The position numbers were made by a program, and so were the translations under genes. Source: Sphingobacteriales bacterium (GTDB taxonomy: Bacteria; Bacteroidota; Bacteroidia; Chitinophagales; LD1). From it: a stretch of 64,000 bases of DNA. The notes below the pieces were generated by a model. That model was not told where the DNA came from, ran no database searches, and saw nothing but the letters and a program-made list of their open reading frames with translations. The stretch spans positions 124,001 through 188,000 of the forward strand of contig JADFDM010000006.1 of NCBI GenBank assembly GCA_018262795.1. The letters run 5' to 3'. Position 1 is the stretch's first letter, and each line of letters begins with the position of its first letter. Positions 3,220-10,265 of the stretch are shown here, in pieces.

Positions 3220-3277
3220 TGTTATTGTTTTTAAAAATTGATTTTAATATTTATCTAAAAAGTTTTCTGCCACACTG

Positions 3278-3349
<72 letters not shown>

Positions 3350-3465
3350 ATTCTTTCTGTTGCCTCGATCTGCAACCTTCCCGCTATCTAACGGAATATA
3401 CTACCTCTGCCCTATGGCAGCAATTACTACGGTTTGTTCAGCAAACCGCTTCCTAAAACTTACAG

Positions 3466-3542
3466 AGCGGGAGACGAGGCTCGAACCCGCGACCTATCCC
3501 GCTATGCAGCGGGATCGCTCTATCAACCGAATCTGCTTCCGC
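3466..3542 (-). pseudogene. Pseudo-tRNA-Gly, copy 1 (anticodon arm replaced by an 8-bp hairpin)
   Basis: 77 nt aligned to the genuine tRNA-Gly at 3920-3992. The T-arm and 3' acceptor strand are identical, the 5' acceptor strand has one mismatch (GCGGAAG), and the D-stem is degraded (GATT against GAGC). The anticodon arm is replaced by a 20-nt perfect hairpin: ATCCCGCT, tetraloop GCAT, AGCGGGAT. There is no seven-base anticodon loop, so it should not decode. It could still be a processing substrate or a regulatory tRNA-like element. Confidence 0.8.
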
Positions 3543-3692
3543 AGGTAATTTCTTGTCACATTTTAAAGAACGACTTCTCTCTTCTTCTTTTCAAATTCGC
3601 TACTGCCTATTTTTTAATGAGTTAGGCTAACTCTTCGCTATGGTAGCCAATTACTACGGTTTGTTCAGCAAACCGCTTCCTAAAACTTACAG

Positions 3693-3769
3693 AGCGGGAG
3701 ACGAGGCTCGAACCCGCGACCTATCCCGCTATGCAGCGGGATCGCTCTATCAACCGAATCTGCTTCCGC
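3693..3769 (-). pseudogene. Pseudo-tRNA-Gly, copy 2
   Basis: Identical over its 77 nt to copy 1 and offset by exactly 227 bases. It has the same degraded D-stem and the same 20-nt hairpin in place of an anticodon arm. It lies between the genuine tRNA-Gly and copy 1 in the direction of transcription. Confidence 0.8.
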
Positions 3770-3919
3770 AGGTAATTTCTTGTCACATTTTAAAGAACGA
3801 CTTCTCTCTTCTTCTTTTCAAATTCGCTACCGCCTATTTTTTAATGAGTTAGGCTAACTCTTCGCTATGGTAGCCAATTACTACGGTTTGTTCAGCAAAC
3901 CGCTTCCTAAAACTTACAG

Positions 3920-3992
3920 AGCGGGAGACGAGGCTCGAACCCGCGACCTACAGCTTGGAAGGCTGTCGCTCTACCAACTGAGCTACTCCCGC
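3920..3992 (-). tRNA. tRNA-Gly (anticodon UCC)
   Basis: 73 nt cloverleaf: acceptor GCGGGAG/CTCCCGC, D-stem GCTC/GAGC, anticodon arm ACAGC-CTTCCAA-GCTGT with anticodon TCC, T-loop GTTCGAGCC. It is the intact parent of the two pseudo-tRNAs downstream. Confidence 0.96.
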
Positions 3993-4031
3993 AGATAATT
4001 TCCATGCTCATTATTAAAGAACGACTGTTTG

Positions 4032-4437: not shown

Positions 4438-4737
4438 CTAATGAGCTTTTAATTTCTGTTTCTGTTTTTTCAACTGCCCGGCTATAGTTTGGAGCGCCAA
4501 GTCAGTGCTTTCTTCAAATGATTTTGAGGTTTTACTTACAAACAATGTTTTCCCGGGGACATGAATTTTAATTTCCACAATCTTGTCTCTGATGCTTTGC
4601 CTGGTTTCCATTTTTAAGAAAACCTCGGCTTCTACAATTCGGTCAAAGAAAGTTTCGAGCTTCTGAAGTTTTTGATCAATAAACTCAATAAGCTGAGTAG
4701 ATGCATCAAAGTGCACCGGACGAATTACCACATTCAT
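4438..4737 (-). CDS. hpf: Ribosome hibernation promoting factor, short form (HPF/RaiA family)
   Basis: 99 aa from the ATG at 4737; an ATG three codons earlier (4746) is possible, but the family starts with M-N-(V/I)-x-I as seen here. The sequence follows the S30AE fold: MNVVIRPVHFDAS, a helix with LIEFIDQKLQKLE, strands ending in VEIKIHVPG, and the final helix SFEESTDLALQTIAGQLKKQKQK. It binds the 30S decoding channel and inactivates ribosomes in stationary phase. There is no C-terminal dimerisation domain, so it is the short type. It lies just upstream of the tRNA-tuf cluster, as commonly in Bacteroidota. Confidence 0.9.
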   Translation of the reverse strand: MNVVIRPVHFDASTQLIEFIDQKLQKLETFFDRIVEAEVFLKMETRQSIRDKIVEIKIHVPGKTLFVSKTSKSFEESTDLALQTIAGQLKKQKQKLKAH

Positions 4738-4874
4738 AAAGAACATTTTTAGGTTATAAAATCAGTTCGCATTTCTAAGGTAACGAAAAATTACCCTTAG
4801 GTGTATGACTTTTCAACGAAAAAATCTTAAAAAGGTTCTACTGTATAAAAATCATACAGATACGCTTACTGACT

Positions 4875-6257
4875 TTACTTAATGCGTGCGAATCGAGCGG
4901 TGAAATGGCGCAGAAAAGGAGGCTCATACGTAAGTCGCAGCCCCCGAGCTTGAGGTCTTTCTTCCAAAATATCATCAAACACGTCAATGACATAATCAAT
5001 ATGGCTTTGCGTGTAAACTCTACGAGGAATTGCCAAACGCACTAATTCATTTTTTGCAGGAATTAAGTTGCCATTTTCATCTTTCTTACCAAACATAACA
5101 GAACCTATTTCTACACAGCGAATGCCTCCTTGAGTGTATAAGTCGCACACGAGTGCCTGCCCCGGAAATTCATGAACGGGAATTTGCGGATACAATGCTT
5201 TGGCATCTATATACACAGCATGCCCCCCAAAGGGGCGAACAATGGGAATACCTTTTTCATATAGATGACGGCCAAGGTATTCAGTGCTTTTTATTCGGTA
5301 ATGCAAATAATCCGGGTCAAATACCTCTTCCAAACCAACGGCAATTGCCTCCATATCTCTACCGGATAAACCGCCATAAGTGGCAAAACCTTCAGAGATG
5401 ATAAGTTGGTTAGTGCATTTTTGTGCCATTTCTTTATCGCGTAATACCAGCAGCCCACCCATATTTACAAGGGCATCTTTTTTGGCACTCATTACAAAAG
5501 CATCACACAGTGCTAACATCTCTTGTGCAATTTCCTTGTATGATTTTGTTTCATACCCCGATTCTCGATGTTTAATAAAATAGCTATTCTCTGCAATGCG
5601 GCAGCCGTCAATCACCAACAGGAGTTCATGCTCATCACATAGTTTTCTAAGTTCCTTAGCATTTTGCATACTCACCGGCTGCCCACCGGAAGAGTTATTG
5701 GTCACCGTAAGTATAACAGCCCCTATATTTCCCTTCCCGTACTTATCTATTAGAACCTTCACTTGCTCTATATCAATGTTCCCTTTAAAAGGTAGTTCAG
5801 TATTGGGGTCCAATGACACTTCGCTCATGCAATCAAAAGCTGTGGCTCCGGTAAATTCAATATTGGCTCTTGTAGTATCGAAATGTGTGTTGCTAATGAA
5901 AACTTTATCAGGGCCTCCGAGAATTCCATACAAAATCCGTTCGGCTGCGCGCCCCTGGTGAGTAGGCAGCACATAAGGCATTCCGCTCAGGCCTTTCACC
6001 ACTGTTTCCAGATGTTCCCAACTATGGGCCCCGGCATAACTTTCATCCCCTAACATCATGGCGCTCCATTGATGGTCGCTCATTGCCGAAGTTCCGCTAT
6101 CGGTCAGTAAATCAATGTACACATCATCGCTGCGAATCAGAAAGGGATTGTAGCCCGCTGTTTGCAAAATATTTATCCGCTGTTCAATAGTTGTAATACG
6201 AAGCGGCTCCACCATTTTAATACGAAACGGCTCCGCCAGTGTACGAGGTTTTTTCAT
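4875..6257 (-). CDS. tnaA: Tryptophanase (PLP-dependent beta-eliminating lyase)
   Basis: 460 aa, full length. It splits L-tryptophan into indole, pyruvate and ammonia in the cytoplasm. The family core is clear: IDLLTDSGT near 48-56, LPTHQGRAAE near 97-106, and the PLP lysine in SAKKDA (K260). Two positions separate tryptophanase from tyrosine phenol-lyase: the arginine that binds phenol in TPL is isoleucine here (VEIGS, I384), and the last conserved block reads LRHFTARF with His451, as in tryptophanases. Other segments (AMSDHQW, YAGAHS) look more TPL-like, so activity should be confirmed. Single gene upstream of nothing obvious; no tnaB permease or tnaC leader was found beside it. Confidence 0.87.
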   Translation of the reverse strand: MKKPRTLAEPFRIKMVEPLRITTIEQRINILQTAGYNPFLIRSDDVYIDLLTDSGTSAMSDHQWSAMMLGDESYAGAHSWEHLETVVKGLSGMPYVLPTHQGRAAERILYGILGGPDKVFISNTHFDTTRANIEFTGATAFDCMSEVSLDPNTELPFKGNIDIEQVKVLIDKYGKGNIGAVILTVTNNSSGGQPVSMQNAKELRKLCDEHELLLVIDGCRIAENSYFIKHRESGYETKSYKEIAQEMLALCDAFVMSAKKDALVNMGGLLVLRDKEMAQKCTNQLIISEGFATYGGLSGRDMEAIAVGLEEVFDPDYLHYRIKSTEYLGRHLYEKGIPIVRPFGGHAVYIDAKALYPQIPVHEFPGQALVCDLYTQGGIRCVEIGSVMFGKKDENGNLIPAKNELVRLAIPRRVYTQSHIDYVIDVFDDILEERPQARGLRLTYEPPFLRHFTARFARIK

Positions 6258-6435: not shown

Positions 6436-7203
6436 TTATAGATTCTTTTTTCTGAAAATGCGCACAGAAGCTAAGAGTGGAAGCAGAATCCACAGCAACA
6501 TCACACCAATGGTATAAATCATACCAAAAGATTTTCCGAAAAACTGCTTGTACACAGCTCCTGTAAATCCCATTAACGCAGAGATGTCTATTTTCAATAG
6601 GATCATAATTCGACCTAAGTCAATTGGATTTAAAGATGCCATTCCAATCACCGCCTTGTCCAACGGGTAATCATTAAAAGCAAACAATACCGCCAACACC
6701 AATGCATCATAAATGACGGAGAAATAAAACCACATCATTAGTGCTACACCTATGCCTTTCGCTTTATCGCGAGTGACTACCGAGGCGAAAAATGCAAGTG
6801 AGGCAAATGAAAGCGTAAGGGCAATGCCGGATAGCAGTAGAACAAAACCAGTCGCGGTGGGGGCATAATAAGCAATAGGAATACCCACCCCTACTAATAG
6901 CCCCACTACAAGCGATACCGCCACACCAAAATACTCCCCTAATAAAATACTGTTGCGACTAATAGGTTGCGCTACGAGTAGTTCAATAAATTCGTAGGCA
7001 TTGTAGAAATAGGTAGTAGAGAAAATAATGCTGACAAGTGGCACGATAATCATGATCACGCTCATCAGGCTAACAAGACTTTTGGAAGGATCGCTCTCAA
7101 GCCCAAAAAGACTAAACGAAATGAGCAACAGAAATAAGGTGTAAGCAATCAGTACCTTGCTGCGCAGAATATCGTAAACAACATATTTGGCTATCTTAAG
7201 CAT
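6436..7203 (-). CDS. nosY: NosY-type ABC transporter permease
   Basis: 255 aa with six predicted membrane segments: residues about 18-34, 46-66, 90-112, 118-143, 156-180 and 228-246. It is the last gene of the nos operon. Its start overlaps the end of nosF by 8 bases, which suggests translational coupling. With NosF and NosD it forms the NosDFY machine needed for maturation of the copper centre CuZ of nitrous oxide reductase. The call rests on membrane pattern and operon position more than on motifs. Confidence 0.88.
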   Translation of the reverse strand: MLKIAKYVVYDILRSKVLIAYTLFLLLISFSLFGLESDPSKSLVSLMSVIMIIVPLVSIIFSTTYFYNAYEFIELLVAQPISRNSILLGEYFGVAVSLVVGLLVGVGIPIAYYAPTATGFVLLLSGIALTLSFASLAFFASVVTRDKAKGIGVALMMWFYFSVIYDALVLAVLFAFNDYPLDKAVIGMASLNPIDLGRIMILLKIDISALMGFTGAVYKQFFGKSFGMIYTIGVMLLWILLPLLASVRIFRKKNL

Positions 7204-7909
7204 GTAGTTTCTCCTTCATAATTTTGGCTATCGCTTTTCCTAAACGGTCTTCCCCAGTTTCAAATTTTAACTCCGGGATAGTTTTATAGAAATTGATTTT
7301 GCCCTCGAATAGATACATCAGTTTATCTCCCATTTCTTCCACTTCACTCATAATATGTGAGGTAACAAGTATTAGCCTACCCTCTTGTTTTGATTTCAAG
7401 ATTTTTGCTTTGAGAATTTCAGATGCTAAGGGATCTAATCCGGCTGTGGGTTCGTCCAGTATCAGCACCTTTGGATGAAACAAGAAAGCGAGGGCAGCAC
7501 TTACTTTTTGGCGAGTTCCGCCCGATAGTGTTCGCATTGATTTTCCGTACATCGAAGGCAAATCATACTGATGCAACAATTCTTCATCCACATCGGTATT
7601 GTGTTTGCGCAAGTCTTTCATCATCGAAACTATCTGGCCAATTTTCATGTTCTCGGGATACCGTCCTATTTGCGGCATGTATCCAATGTCTTTTCGATAA
7701 TGAAAATCATTTACAATATTCTTACCATTAAAAATGACCTCTCCTTTATCGGCCACCACCATTCCAAGAATCGTTTTAATGAGCGTGGTTTTGCCGGAGC
7801 CATTGGGGCCGATAATGATCACCGCTTGGCCGGATTCGAAGAAAGCATTTACATCTTTCAGCACTTCCAACTTCCCAAAACTTTTCCGCAGATTTTTTAC
7901 TTCAATCAT
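7196..7909 (-). CDS. nosF: NosF ABC transporter ATP-binding protein
   Basis: 237 aa. ABC ATPase with Walker A GPNGSGKTT (about residues 34-42), Q-loop in YMPQIG, signature LSGGTRQKV (about 128-136), Walker B VLILDEPTAGLD (about 148-159) and H-loop VTSHI. It powers the NosDFY complex that supports CuZ assembly in periplasmic NosZ. It overlaps nosD by 4 bases (ATGA-type) at its start and nosY by 8 at its end. Confidence 0.93.
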   Translation of the reverse strand: MIEVKNLRKSFGKLEVLKDVNAFFESGQAVIIIGPNGSGKTTLIKTILGMVVADKGEVIFNGKNIVNDFHYRKDIGYMPQIGRYPENMKIGQIVSMMKDLRKHNTDVDEELLHQYDLPSMYGKSMRTLSGGTRQKVSAALAFLFHPKVLILDEPTAGLDPLASEILKAKILKSKQEGRLILVTSHIMSEVEEMGDKLMYLFEGKINFYKTIPELKFETGEDRLGKAIAKIMKEKLHA

Positions 7910-9138
7910 CTTTTAATAATTGTCATTACCGGAGTGGCATCCTGAAATGTATCGGGCATGATACCCGGAATGTTTTTTTCGGCTCGGTCCAGCAAATCAA
8001 CTAAAAAACTTCGCAGTAAAATAACGGCATAAGGCATCTGCTCAATTATCATAGAGTATAGGCTCACGGGTTTGTAGGGCACATCTCCTATTTTATCTCT
8101 ATTCAAATCATAGCCTTCATATTTATCCCAATAATTGTAGGCAAATAAATTATTGACTAAAACTCCGTTAGTAGCAGCATCAAAAGTATTTCCGGTAAAA
8201 TTATTTCTGCGAAAAGTATCGGATTCGCAGTTAGCCATAATTTTCAATCCATAGCCGTTCTTGATGAAATCATTGTTTTCAAACCGCATCCGGCTAGAGC
8301 CTTCCATAGTAACAGCAATAGTGTTGTTGCGGAAAGTATTGCCCACTATGATGCTGCTATTAATATCTTTCAGTAAGAGGCCGTAAGCGGCATCGCCCCA
8401 GTTATCCTCAAATACATTATCATACATCTGCACATAGTCAGTGTACATCACGGCTACTCCGGTGCCGTTGTTACGAAAAGTATTACGGATGTAAGTATTG
8501 TAGTCTGAGAACATAAAATGCAGCCCATAGCGAATATTGTTGGCACTCAAGTTATTAGTGATGGTGCAATGTTTTGAAAATTCAAAGTAAATGCCATCTC
8601 GATGATTATTTATCCGATTTCCTTCAATTAAAATGCTGTCGCACTTCCATAAATGGATTCCGTTACCCCTGTCGGAACCGGCATAATCTGCACCGATTGT
8701 AACGTTATCTTTCACAGTAGTATGGGAGGCATCGCTGATGTAAATTCCAAAGTAAACGTTGCGCAAATGGCACCGAAACACTTGTGTATAATGGCTTTTG
8801 AAAATTCGTATGCCGGCATAATCTTTCAGACTGCCCAGATTCGTATTCCTTATATCGAGTCCGATAAGAGAAACGTGATCGGCCAAAACAGTAATGACCT
8901 CGTCTTTCTGTTGCCCGTCTATTATTGGATAGTGCTCGCCAATAACAGTCAGCGGCTTATTAATTATTGTATTGATGGAGGCGTAGGTGCCGGGTTTTAC
9001 AAGAATAGTATCAAACGGAGCAGCACTCTGTATCGCTTTTGCAAAATCATTGATCTCGCAGGAAGGACAAAGGGTAATAACATTTGCTCTACACAGCGCA
9101 GTTAGCGCAGTGAGAAATAAAAAAAAGTAGAATCGCAT
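7906..9138 (-). CDS. nosD: NosD periplasmic copper-site assembly protein
   Basis: 410 aa. N-terminal Sec signal peptide (MRFYFFLFLTALTALCRA), then a right-handed parallel beta-helix built from many repeats of the type G-N-x-I-x-x-N-x-x-G-I (for example DSILIEGNRINNHRDGIYF and NSSIIVGNTFRNNTIAV). These repeats are typical of NosD in the carbohydrate-binding/sugar-hydrolysis fold family. It works in the periplasm with NosFY, passing or positioning copper or sulfur for NosZ. It lies 3 bases downstream of the NosL fusion. Confidence 0.93.
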   Translation of the reverse strand: MRFYFFLFLTALTALCRANVITLCPSCEINDFAKAIQSAAPFDTILVKPGTYASINTIINKPLTVIGEHYPIIDGQQKDEVITVLADHVSLIGLDIRNTNLGSLKDYAGIRIFKSHYTQVFRCHLRNVYFGIYISDASHTTVKDNVTIGADYAGSDRGNGIHLWKCDSILIEGNRINNHRDGIYFEFSKHCTITNNLSANNIRYGLHFMFSDYNTYIRNTFRNNGTGVAVMYTDYVQMYDNVFEDNWGDAAYGLLLKDINSSIIVGNTFRNNTIAVTMEGSSRMRFENNDFIKNGYGLKIMANCESDTFRRNNFTGNTFDAATNGVLVNNLFAYNYWDKYEGYDLNRDKIGDVPYKPVSLYSMIIEQMPYAVILLRSFLVDLLDRAEKNIPGIMPDTFQDATPVMTIIKR

Positions 9139-9141
9139 GTA

Positions 9142-10203
9142 TTAGAAATTGAGTGTGGCGACTTTATCCCACAACAACAAGTTACCGCCTAAGTCCTTTT
9201 GAGTTTCCTCGGCTGCCTCTCTCGTTTTAAAAGATGCCAAGTTGCCCCCCATAGGGCTTTTAATATTTTCTCCTTGAAGATAAAAAGCACTCCCGGCATC
9301 AATCAACTGGCCTGGATTTTCATAGCTCACTACCAAGTATTTTGAAAATTTATCGTCCGGATGATTTTTGAGGAATGCCACCATGCACTCCCCTGAATCG
9401 AATTTGTAAACTTTCCCTTTGGGGTTTATCACTTCGGCTCCGAATCGCTTATCCATAATAATCATCTTGCAATGTTCACAGGCATTTTTACCGTATTCTA
9501 TTGGATCGGGGTTTGTGCTGCAAGCACTCAACGAAATCAACAATAAAACAATAGCTGCCGAAGCGGTTTGGAGTAGGTGCCGTGGATTCTTTATCGCTTT
9601 TATTTCTTGCTTGGCTACACTTACCCTTTTTCGGCCTACAATTATTTCATACAGCAGCACACCTACAATGATGACAGCGGGCGCAATAATTAACCACCCT
9701 CCCACATCGGGAAAAGAGCCGGCTAAAAAGTTGAGCAACTGTTTCCAACCAAACAATGGGGGTTGGTAAGTCATGCCAGGCACTTTGATAGCGGCATGAG
9801 GATCGAGATTGTGCCCATATTCGTATTCCCATTTCCAAAAATCATAGGATCCCCAAACACCACACAAGGCCAAGTAAGCCACATTGAACCAAAGCATGAT
9901 TCGTCTTCCGGTGATAGCCACCAACACGCTTAGCGCAATCATTGCTATAATCAGCCAAGGCATCACTTTAAATTCGGGAAAATTTTCTTCATGAATTAAG
10001 GACATCCCTATATAGTGGTTCAAGCCATTAATTTTATCTACATCACCTCCTAATTTATTCGCCCATATCTCCATTTTTAAACCTTCGGGATATTGCGGAG
10101 CTTCTAATTGTATTTGCCATACGGGAACAAACAAAGAACCAATCATGGTAAGCCCACACACTAGAACAATGACACGTGAAAATATTTTTAGTTTCTTTTT
10201 CAT
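9142..10203 (-). CDS. nosL: Fusion of a four-helix membrane protein with NosL copper chaperone
   Basis: 353 aa from the ATG at 10203 (MKKKLK, a good membrane start); the frame remains open to 10260, overlapping the space behind nosZ. Residues 1-210 hold about four membrane segments (about 9-30, 80-98, 100-120, 170-188) with a conserved LEAPQYPEGL stretch. Then comes a lipobox-like L-I-S-L-S-A-C (Cys near 228) followed by a NosL domain with C-E-H-C-K-M (Cys 242 and 245, Met 247). NosL is normally a separate lipoprotein that delivers Cu(I) to NosZ. The internal lipobox suggests that an ancestral lipoprotein gene was fused to an upstream membrane protein. It follows nosZ by 62 bases. Confidence 0.85.
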   Translation of the reverse strand: MKKKLKIFSRVIVLVCGLTMIGSLFVPVWQIQLEAPQYPEGLKMEIWANKLGGDVDKINGLNHYIGMSLIHEENFPEFKVMPWLIIAMIALSVLVAITGRRIMLWFNVAYLALCGVWGSYDFWKWEYEYGHNLDPHAAIKVPGMTYQPPLFGWKQLLNFLAGSFPDVGGWLIIAPAVIIVGVLLYEIIVGRKRVSVAKQEIKAIKNPRHLLQTASAAIVLLLISLSACSTNPDPIEYGKNACEHCKMIIMDKRFGAEVINPKGKVYKFDSGECMVAFLKNHPDDKFSKYLVVSYENPGQLIDAGSAFYLQGENIKSPMGGNLASFKTREAAEETQKDLGGNLLLWDKVATLNF

Positions 10204-10265
10204 GACTTTGTTTTTGGATGAAAAAACGGGGAGGACACTACCTTCCTCCCCGGCAATCAATCAAC

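Follow-up and report, generated by a model that had tools for sequence, protein, structure and literature searches.

Two tandem 227-bp units between the genuine tRNA-Gly and tRNA-Thr genes upstream of tuf in a Sphingobacteriales bacterium are probably ORF-less tandem derivatives of a family of mobile GIY-YIG elements whose entry point into tRNA genes is the anticodon arm. The observations behind this reading are the anatomy of the units, a rule by which pseudo-tRNAs before and after a real tRNA keep opposite halves, the linkage of the hairpins to one clade of GIY-YIG nucleases (clade T), palindromes that covary, and a hairpin found unchanged in two tRNA contexts of this genome; cutting and homing by the clade-T nuclease are what we infer.

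Anatomy of the tandem units in the tRNA–tuf operon

On the minus strand of the window (the whole stretch of 64,000 nucleotides that was analysed), the transcription order is Thr(TGT), Tyr, Gly(TCC), unit, unit, a 71-nt tail, Thr(GGT) and tuf, and all four of these tRNAs are called as genuine by both ARAGORN and Rfam. All features described below lie on this strand. The genuine tRNA-Gly(TCC) gene (3919–3992) is followed by a 3′ flank with an 8-bp spacer hairpin (3875–3918), which is duplicated in both units. The first unit in transcription order (3648–3874) comprises a spacer, a decayed Gly 5′ half, a hairpin, an intact Gly 3′ half and the 3′ flank, and the second (3421–3647) differs from it at a single base (T3604 versus C3831), as a sequence-only reading of the same DNA had reported. 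A 227-bp repeat at 99.6% identity cannot have arisen by chance. Positions 3875–3950, which belong to the 3′ half of the genuine tRNA-Gly together with its 3′ flank, form a third copy of the first 76 bp of the units.

The pseudo-tRNA-Gly copies (3692–3769 in the first unit, 3465–3542 in the second) have a 3′ half and 3′ flank identical to those of the genuine gene, a decayed 5′ half (identity 0.81), and an upstream spacer that is a degraded copy of the genuine tRNA-Gly upstream spacer. In both units the anticodon arm is the perfect 8-bp hairpin ATCCCGCT-GCAT-AGCGGGAT, with the replacing cassette TCCCGCTGCATAGCGGGA at 3724–3741 in the first unit and at 3497–3514 in the second, and a separate hairpin, GCGGTTTG-CTGAA-CAAACCGT, lies behind the pseudo-tRNA. 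The GCAT-loop arm and the separate hairpin had both been recognised from the letters alone, and both are confirmed here. With the anticodon replaced, the acceptor 5′ strand mutated, and neither ARAGORN nor Rfam calling the pseudo-tRNA of either unit in the window scan, these copies do not qualify as functional tRNAs, and their fold is no better than that of shuffled sequences (z -0.9). The tail adds a third pseudo-tRNA to the two described earlier: positions 3355–3420 fold as a decayed hairpin pseudo-tRNA (hairpin TTCCGTTAGATAGCGGGA; z = -3.69) that resembles, and probably comes from, tRNA-Thr(GGT), the genuine gene of which (3277–3349) is the next before tuf.

An Rfam scan of the window at gathering thresholds returned four tRNAs only and no RtT (RF00391), and a known RNA family was ruled out as the identity of the units for want of an Rfam match. 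A phage origin was also ruled out, as the phage collection yielded ordinary tRNA-Gly only. Neither a GIY-YIG ORF nor a remnant of one can be recognised in the window units, and the whole 569-bp interval holds no integrase gene between the tRNA and the orphan half. Because no GIY-YIG ORF lies inside them and intact genes occur elsewhere in the genome, the window units are at most non-autonomous. A boxA-like string, GTTCTTTAA, stands before the genuine tRNA-Gly and before each pseudo-Gly (complement of 3563–3575, 3790–3802 and 4014–4026); similar strings occur in other arrays (L038, L328 and L021), and antitermination signals may have been copied along with the units. Judged from ORF translations only, the neighbourhood of the tRNA–tuf operon encodes an HPF/RaiA-like ribosome hibernation factor and a tryptophanase/tyrosine phenol-lyase-like protein (4438–4746 and 4875–6257), and nosY, nosF, nosD and nosL-like genes for nitrous oxide reductase maturation are found at 6436–10260.

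The Gly–Thr(GGT) spacer measures 569 bp here versus 29–101 bp in seven genomes of the same genus that lack a hairpin copy. In the congeners G007 and G010, which hold a hairpin pseudo-Thr before the real Thr, it reaches 128 and 167 bp, and two further congeners (G015 and G004) carry a hairpin pseudo-Thr(TGT) after Thr(TGT). A search of 150 relatives, of which 17 belong to the same genus, found the Gly unit itself in none. The operon has thus been struck repeatedly, at different tRNAs and in different species, a pattern that fits mobile elements but not a conserved regulator.

The same hairpin at a second tRNA and its relatives across Bacteroidota

The pattern TCCCGCTN{2,6}AGCGGGA occurs at seven sites in the whole genome, six of them pseudo-tRNAs (two in the window and four around a tRNA-Met gene on contig C12) and one other. 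On C12, three 92-bp units, each with an intact Met 5′ half, the hairpin and a decayed 3′ half, precede the real tRNA-Met, which is followed by a terminator, an intact GIY-YIG ORF and a further Met copy that again has the hairpin and whose 3′ half is intact; the locus ends with a terminator and a truncated second GIY-YIG ORF. The stop codon of the intact ORF lies inside the D-loop of the further Met copy. The hairpin 18-mer is identical at Gly in the window and at Met on C12, yet the junctions differ (GCGA-hairpin-TAGG versus GCG-hairpin-AGG), so that it looks like a transferred cassette. Moreover, the loop of the window hairpin holds CAT, the Met anticodon, and not TCC. The best reading of these sequences is that the window units would be ORF-less derivatives with a hairpin derived from the tRNA-Met array. 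A third array in the genome, four 111-bp units with another hairpin, stands before tRNA-Gly(GCC) on C12, and 10 of the 28 TCCCG hairpins of this genome belong to tRNA arrays. A general dispersed repeat was considered and set aside: hairpin counts exceed controls, but the largest group in this genome is that of the tRNA arrays.

From all fetched loci we collected 120 hairpin pseudo-tRNAs, defined by a real tRNA nearby and one half at least 80% identical. The real tRNAs beside them are of 20 kinds, with Ala(GGC), Met, Val and Lys making up most cases; tRNAs were assigned by ARAGORN, which at times names a pseudo-tRNA. Copies that precede the real tRNA keep its 5′ half (identity 0.93, versus 0.66 for the 3′ half; 38 of 44 copies follow this rule), and copies that come after it keep the 3′ half (0.92, versus 0.72 for the 5′ half; 66 of 76). 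Since random sites give identities of only 0.55 and 0.51, the poorer halves are decayed and not unrelated. Several loci (Pro, Lys, Arg) have copies both before and after. Across 30 family genomes, TCCCGN{5,10}CGGGAN{1,3}GGTC matched 61 times versus 7 times for a reversed control. Phylum-wide, 169 of 395 genomes had at least one match to the survey pattern, which favours TCCCG stems and for which related sequences were counted as if independent; many matches are perfect palindromes in arrays, and others are chance-like.

ARAGORN reports 'tRNA-Stop(tta)' and 'tRNA-???' at hairpin pseudo-tRNAs in two genomes (L026 in G005 and L023 in G122), and odd public annotations such as 'tRNA-Stop' or 'tRNA-???' may mark these elements. 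In G005, one 18-mer apparently stands beside both an Ala and a Ser tRNA. In G507, a large mixed array (L344) alternates between hairpin pseudo-Asp units and real tRNAs for Asp and Gly(GCC). Extra TCCCG palindromes were seen in the T-loops of pseudo-tRNAs (L234, L253, L294, L297 and L254), along with one palindrome that sits inside the loop of another, and in the congener G008 three 132-bp tandem units with the hairpin TCCCGAAAGCATTCGGGA are inserted in non-tRNA sequence (L338, contig C2, 563–844).

The stems themselves covary. In distinct hairpins whose outer stem is TCCCG/CGGGA, Watson-Crick pairing holds at pair 6 in 64 of 66 (41.5 after shuffling) and at pair 7 in 54 of 59 (19.1 after shuffling), and these distal pairs use A-T, C-G, T-A and G-C. 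The palindrome is under constraint or made as one piece. When one mismatch is allowed, 91 stems are perfect and 7 have a single mismatch, 1 of which is a wobble; because selection on RNA structure should leave more G-U pairs, this is suggestive, though only suggestive, of recent copying or of a role at the level of DNA. The anticodon of the neighbouring tRNA can be read in 22 of 85 distinct hairpin interiors (shuffled mean 9.4), and for this reason most hairpins seem to be reworked anticodon arms, occasionally moved between tRNAs as in the window. The earlier judgement that the design is too regular for random decay is borne out by the recurrence of the hairpin in the tRNA-Met array and by covarying homologues across Bacteroidota, which also contradict the possibility, raised at the time, that homologues would be lacking elsewhere. 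Of the three origins then offered, a mobile hairpin insertion came closest, to which the same cassette in another tRNA context of the genome and the homologous covarying hairpins can now be added.

A clade of GIY-YIG nucleases linked to the hairpins

The small GIY-YIG genes of the family split into two clades, T and U, in a phylogenetic tree. Clade T provided 115 usable rows, most of them found by protein sequence alone in a single-protein search and not selected for tRNAs or hairpins. In 78 of 115, a TCCCG-type hairpin lies between -45 and +75 relative to the stop codon (20 of 506 in shifted control windows), an intact tRNA ends less than 130 nt upstream in 62 of 107, and a crude pattern identifies the stop codon as the D-loop TAG in 36 of 117. 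None of the 25 clade-U rows is linked to a tRNA; a hairpin stands at the stop in 0 of 25 and a tRNA upstream in 0 of 24. By hand assignment in drafts of unequal completeness, hairpin pseudo-tRNAs occur in 15 of the 18 family genomes with clade-T genes and in 0 of the 12 without. The type of linked tRNA changes 19 times on the nuclease tree, a count that comes from few columns and many open forks. ORF-containing units also occur in tandem, before Pro (3 × 317 bp) and after Arg (3 × 358 bp). Most of the hosts named in the single-protein search belong to Bacteroidota, and Ignavibacteria, Neomarinimicrobiota, Aminicenantes, Nitrospira and an archaeon contribute a single MAG record each.

The Met-linked protein matches Pfam PF01541 (E = 1.7e-19), and the protein alignment has invariant Y, Y-x-G, R and E columns, with conserved active-site residues. 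By sequence profile, the nearest solved relatives of the nuclease domain are chains of UPF0213 proteins and of SLX1, which are structure-specific GIY-YIG nucleases. SLX1 acts on branched DNA; it is a repair enzyme, whereas clade-T genes are tRNA-linked and multicopy.

Alternative explanations and a proposed mechanism

We regard it as unlikely that a Y1 (RAYT-type) transposase, or another host enzyme with a preference for hairpin loops (anticodon loops and T-loops, for example), moves the hairpins as REP-like mobile palindromes, with the GIY-YIG genes merely travelling along with duplicated tRNAs. Such movement would fit the TCCCG hairpins found in T-loops, within another hairpin and at a few non-tRNA sites, the Y1_Tnp genes present in this genome and in all relatives tested, and the 18-mer shared in a different register by two tRNA contexts here, apparently also in G005. 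However, no listed TCCCG hairpin lies near Y1_Tnp in G000 or on the contigs of G005 and G008 that carry full-length Y1_Tnp, the share of hairpins in tRNA arrays (10 of 28) and the strong link to one GIY-YIG clade speak against it, and the before/after rule is left without explanation. REP and REPIN palindromes with their RAYT transposases resemble the present hairpins in being short, dispersed, non-autonomous and helped in trans (PMC3733652), but here the hairpins are tied to tRNA halves and a GIY-YIG clade, and none was found near Y1 transposase genes. It is rather improbable that a tRNA gene was simply duplicated in tandem and then decayed, and that template switching produced the hairpin by chance correction of a quasi-palindrome. 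One half of each copy has indeed decayed, unequal exchange expands tandem repeats, and the anticodon arm is an imperfect palindrome of a kind that template switching can perfect; the dead duplication proposed in the sequence-only reading is to this extent half right, in that the copies are non-functional as tRNAs and lose one half to decay. What duplication does not predict is the nuclease linkage, and the recurrence of the same TCCCG/CGGGA stem beside 20 kinds of tRNA and the excess of its pattern over the reversed control (61 versus 7) also count against it.

We rejected, as highly improbable, a tRNA-like regulatory RNA or decoy in the tuf operon that controls processing, tuf or glycyl-tRNA synthetase, or absorbs anticodon-cutting toxins. 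The position in the tRNA–tuf transcript, the copying of a real spacer with its boxA-like motif and the stable fold of the decayed relic are in its favour, but the unit is found in none of the 150 relatives, other genomes hold different pseudo-tRNAs (of Thr) in this cluster, G-U pairs are almost lacking among the stem variants, and the pseudo-Gly fold does not exceed its shuffles. With neither conservation nor wobble pairs, the RNA control of processing, tuf expression or glycyl-tRNA synthetase suggested earlier finds no support. That the repeat is an assembly artefact is barely conceivable: the genome is a draft of 19 contigs and contig ends interrupt some arrays in other drafts, but the two copies differ at one base and similar arrays recur in many independent assemblies, including contigs of 3.7–4.2 Mb.

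The nearest precedent for the tRNA-linked GIY-YIG elements, and an experimental one, is SegB of phages T4 and T6, a free-standing, tRNA-linked GIY-YIG homing endonuclease that causes tandem amplification of a tRNA segment by homologous recombination (PMC13096335; table in PMC2988022). In the excerpts cited, the likeness extends to a small free-standing enzyme encoded among tRNA genes, to microhomology of its 3′ end with a tRNA, and to the driving of tandem amplification of the tRNA segment; SegB is, however, phage-borne and amplifies working tRNAs, whereas the present elements are chromosomal, and those excerpts describe no hairpin-armed copies, 5′-half/3′-half rule or ORF-less arrays. The 178-bp repeats of E. 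coli tyrT, with the RtT RNA (Rfam RF00391), are likewise tandem repeats behind a tRNA gene, each with a tRNA 3′ end, but they carry only the last ~19 nt of the tRNA, no anticodon-arm hairpin and no nuclease. Integrative elements with tRNA att sites also insert in a tRNA and leave a working tRNA on one side and an orphan half on the other; they use tyrosine recombinases and bring kilobases of genes, in contrast to units of 73–358 bp here with at most a GIY-YIG ORF.

In the favoured reading, invasion of tRNA genes by GIY-YIG elements, a full element consists of an intact tRNA, a short spacer, a small GIY-YIG gene (80–110 aa), a hairpin-armed damaged tRNA copy and the original 3′ half. The nuclease stop codon falls within this second, damaged copy, whose anticodon arm is the perfect hairpin, and a mirror-image form of the element precedes the tRNA. 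We propose that the nuclease cuts an intact tRNA gene at or near the anticodon arm and that repair templated by the element copies the unit in, rebuilding a working tRNA on one side and leaving an orphan half on the other. The junction hairpin would then be a cut-resistant site. A later break could be repaired from a misaligned neighbour copy one unit away, the broken 3′ half pairing with the orphan 3′ half or the broken 5′ half with the orphan 5′ half, and one unit would thereby be added. Breakage and misaligned repair would yield tandem arrays in which the outer half stays identical to the real tRNA and the inner half decays, and arrays served in trans could lose the ORF. The nuclease acting on the window would be supplied in trans by the tRNA-Met locus on C12, and the Met hairpin with its CAT loop would have been carried into the Gly copy. 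A functional tRNA-Gly is retained throughout.

Several points weigh against this model. An ORF-bearing origin of the window units is suggested by hairpin and anatomy alone, and the donor's own intact tRNA should stay cuttable, unlike in ordinary homing. The model leaves the palindromic form of the resistant site without explanation, the TCCCG hairpins in T-loops, in nested positions and in non-tRNA sequence (L338) are not predicted by a pure anticodon-cut model, and a recognised intact tRNA lies close upstream of only 62 of 107 clade-T genes. As a hypothesis, more of these exceptions would be accounted for by an SLX1-like, structure-specific enzyme with cruciform DNA as its substrate.

In the part of the literature covered, we met neither hairpin-armed pseudo-tRNAs nor any chromosomal GIY-YIG element of Bacteroidota linked to tRNA genes, and a family of DNA parasites living on tRNA genes is apparently undescribed. 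More tentatively, these could be minimal mobile elements of a new class, in which a structure-guided GIY-YIG nuclease attacks the anticodon arm of almost any tRNA, each insertion restores a working tRNA, a covarying DNA palindrome marks the junctions, and ORF-less units (down to ~73 bp) are amplified in trans, in Bacteroidota and some other phyla.

If this reading is right, a common and tiny selfish element is housed in tRNA genes across Bacteroidota and has been missed or misnamed by annotation tools, whether as 'tRNA-Stop' and 'tRNA-???' calls or as GIY-YIG proteins with ends that read into a tRNA. It would offer a testable nuclease specific for tRNA-gene or cruciform DNA and would link tRNA amplification of the phage SegB type to bacterial chromosomes. 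Furthermore, the species-specific expansions seen in essential tRNA operons, that before tuf among them, would find an explanation.
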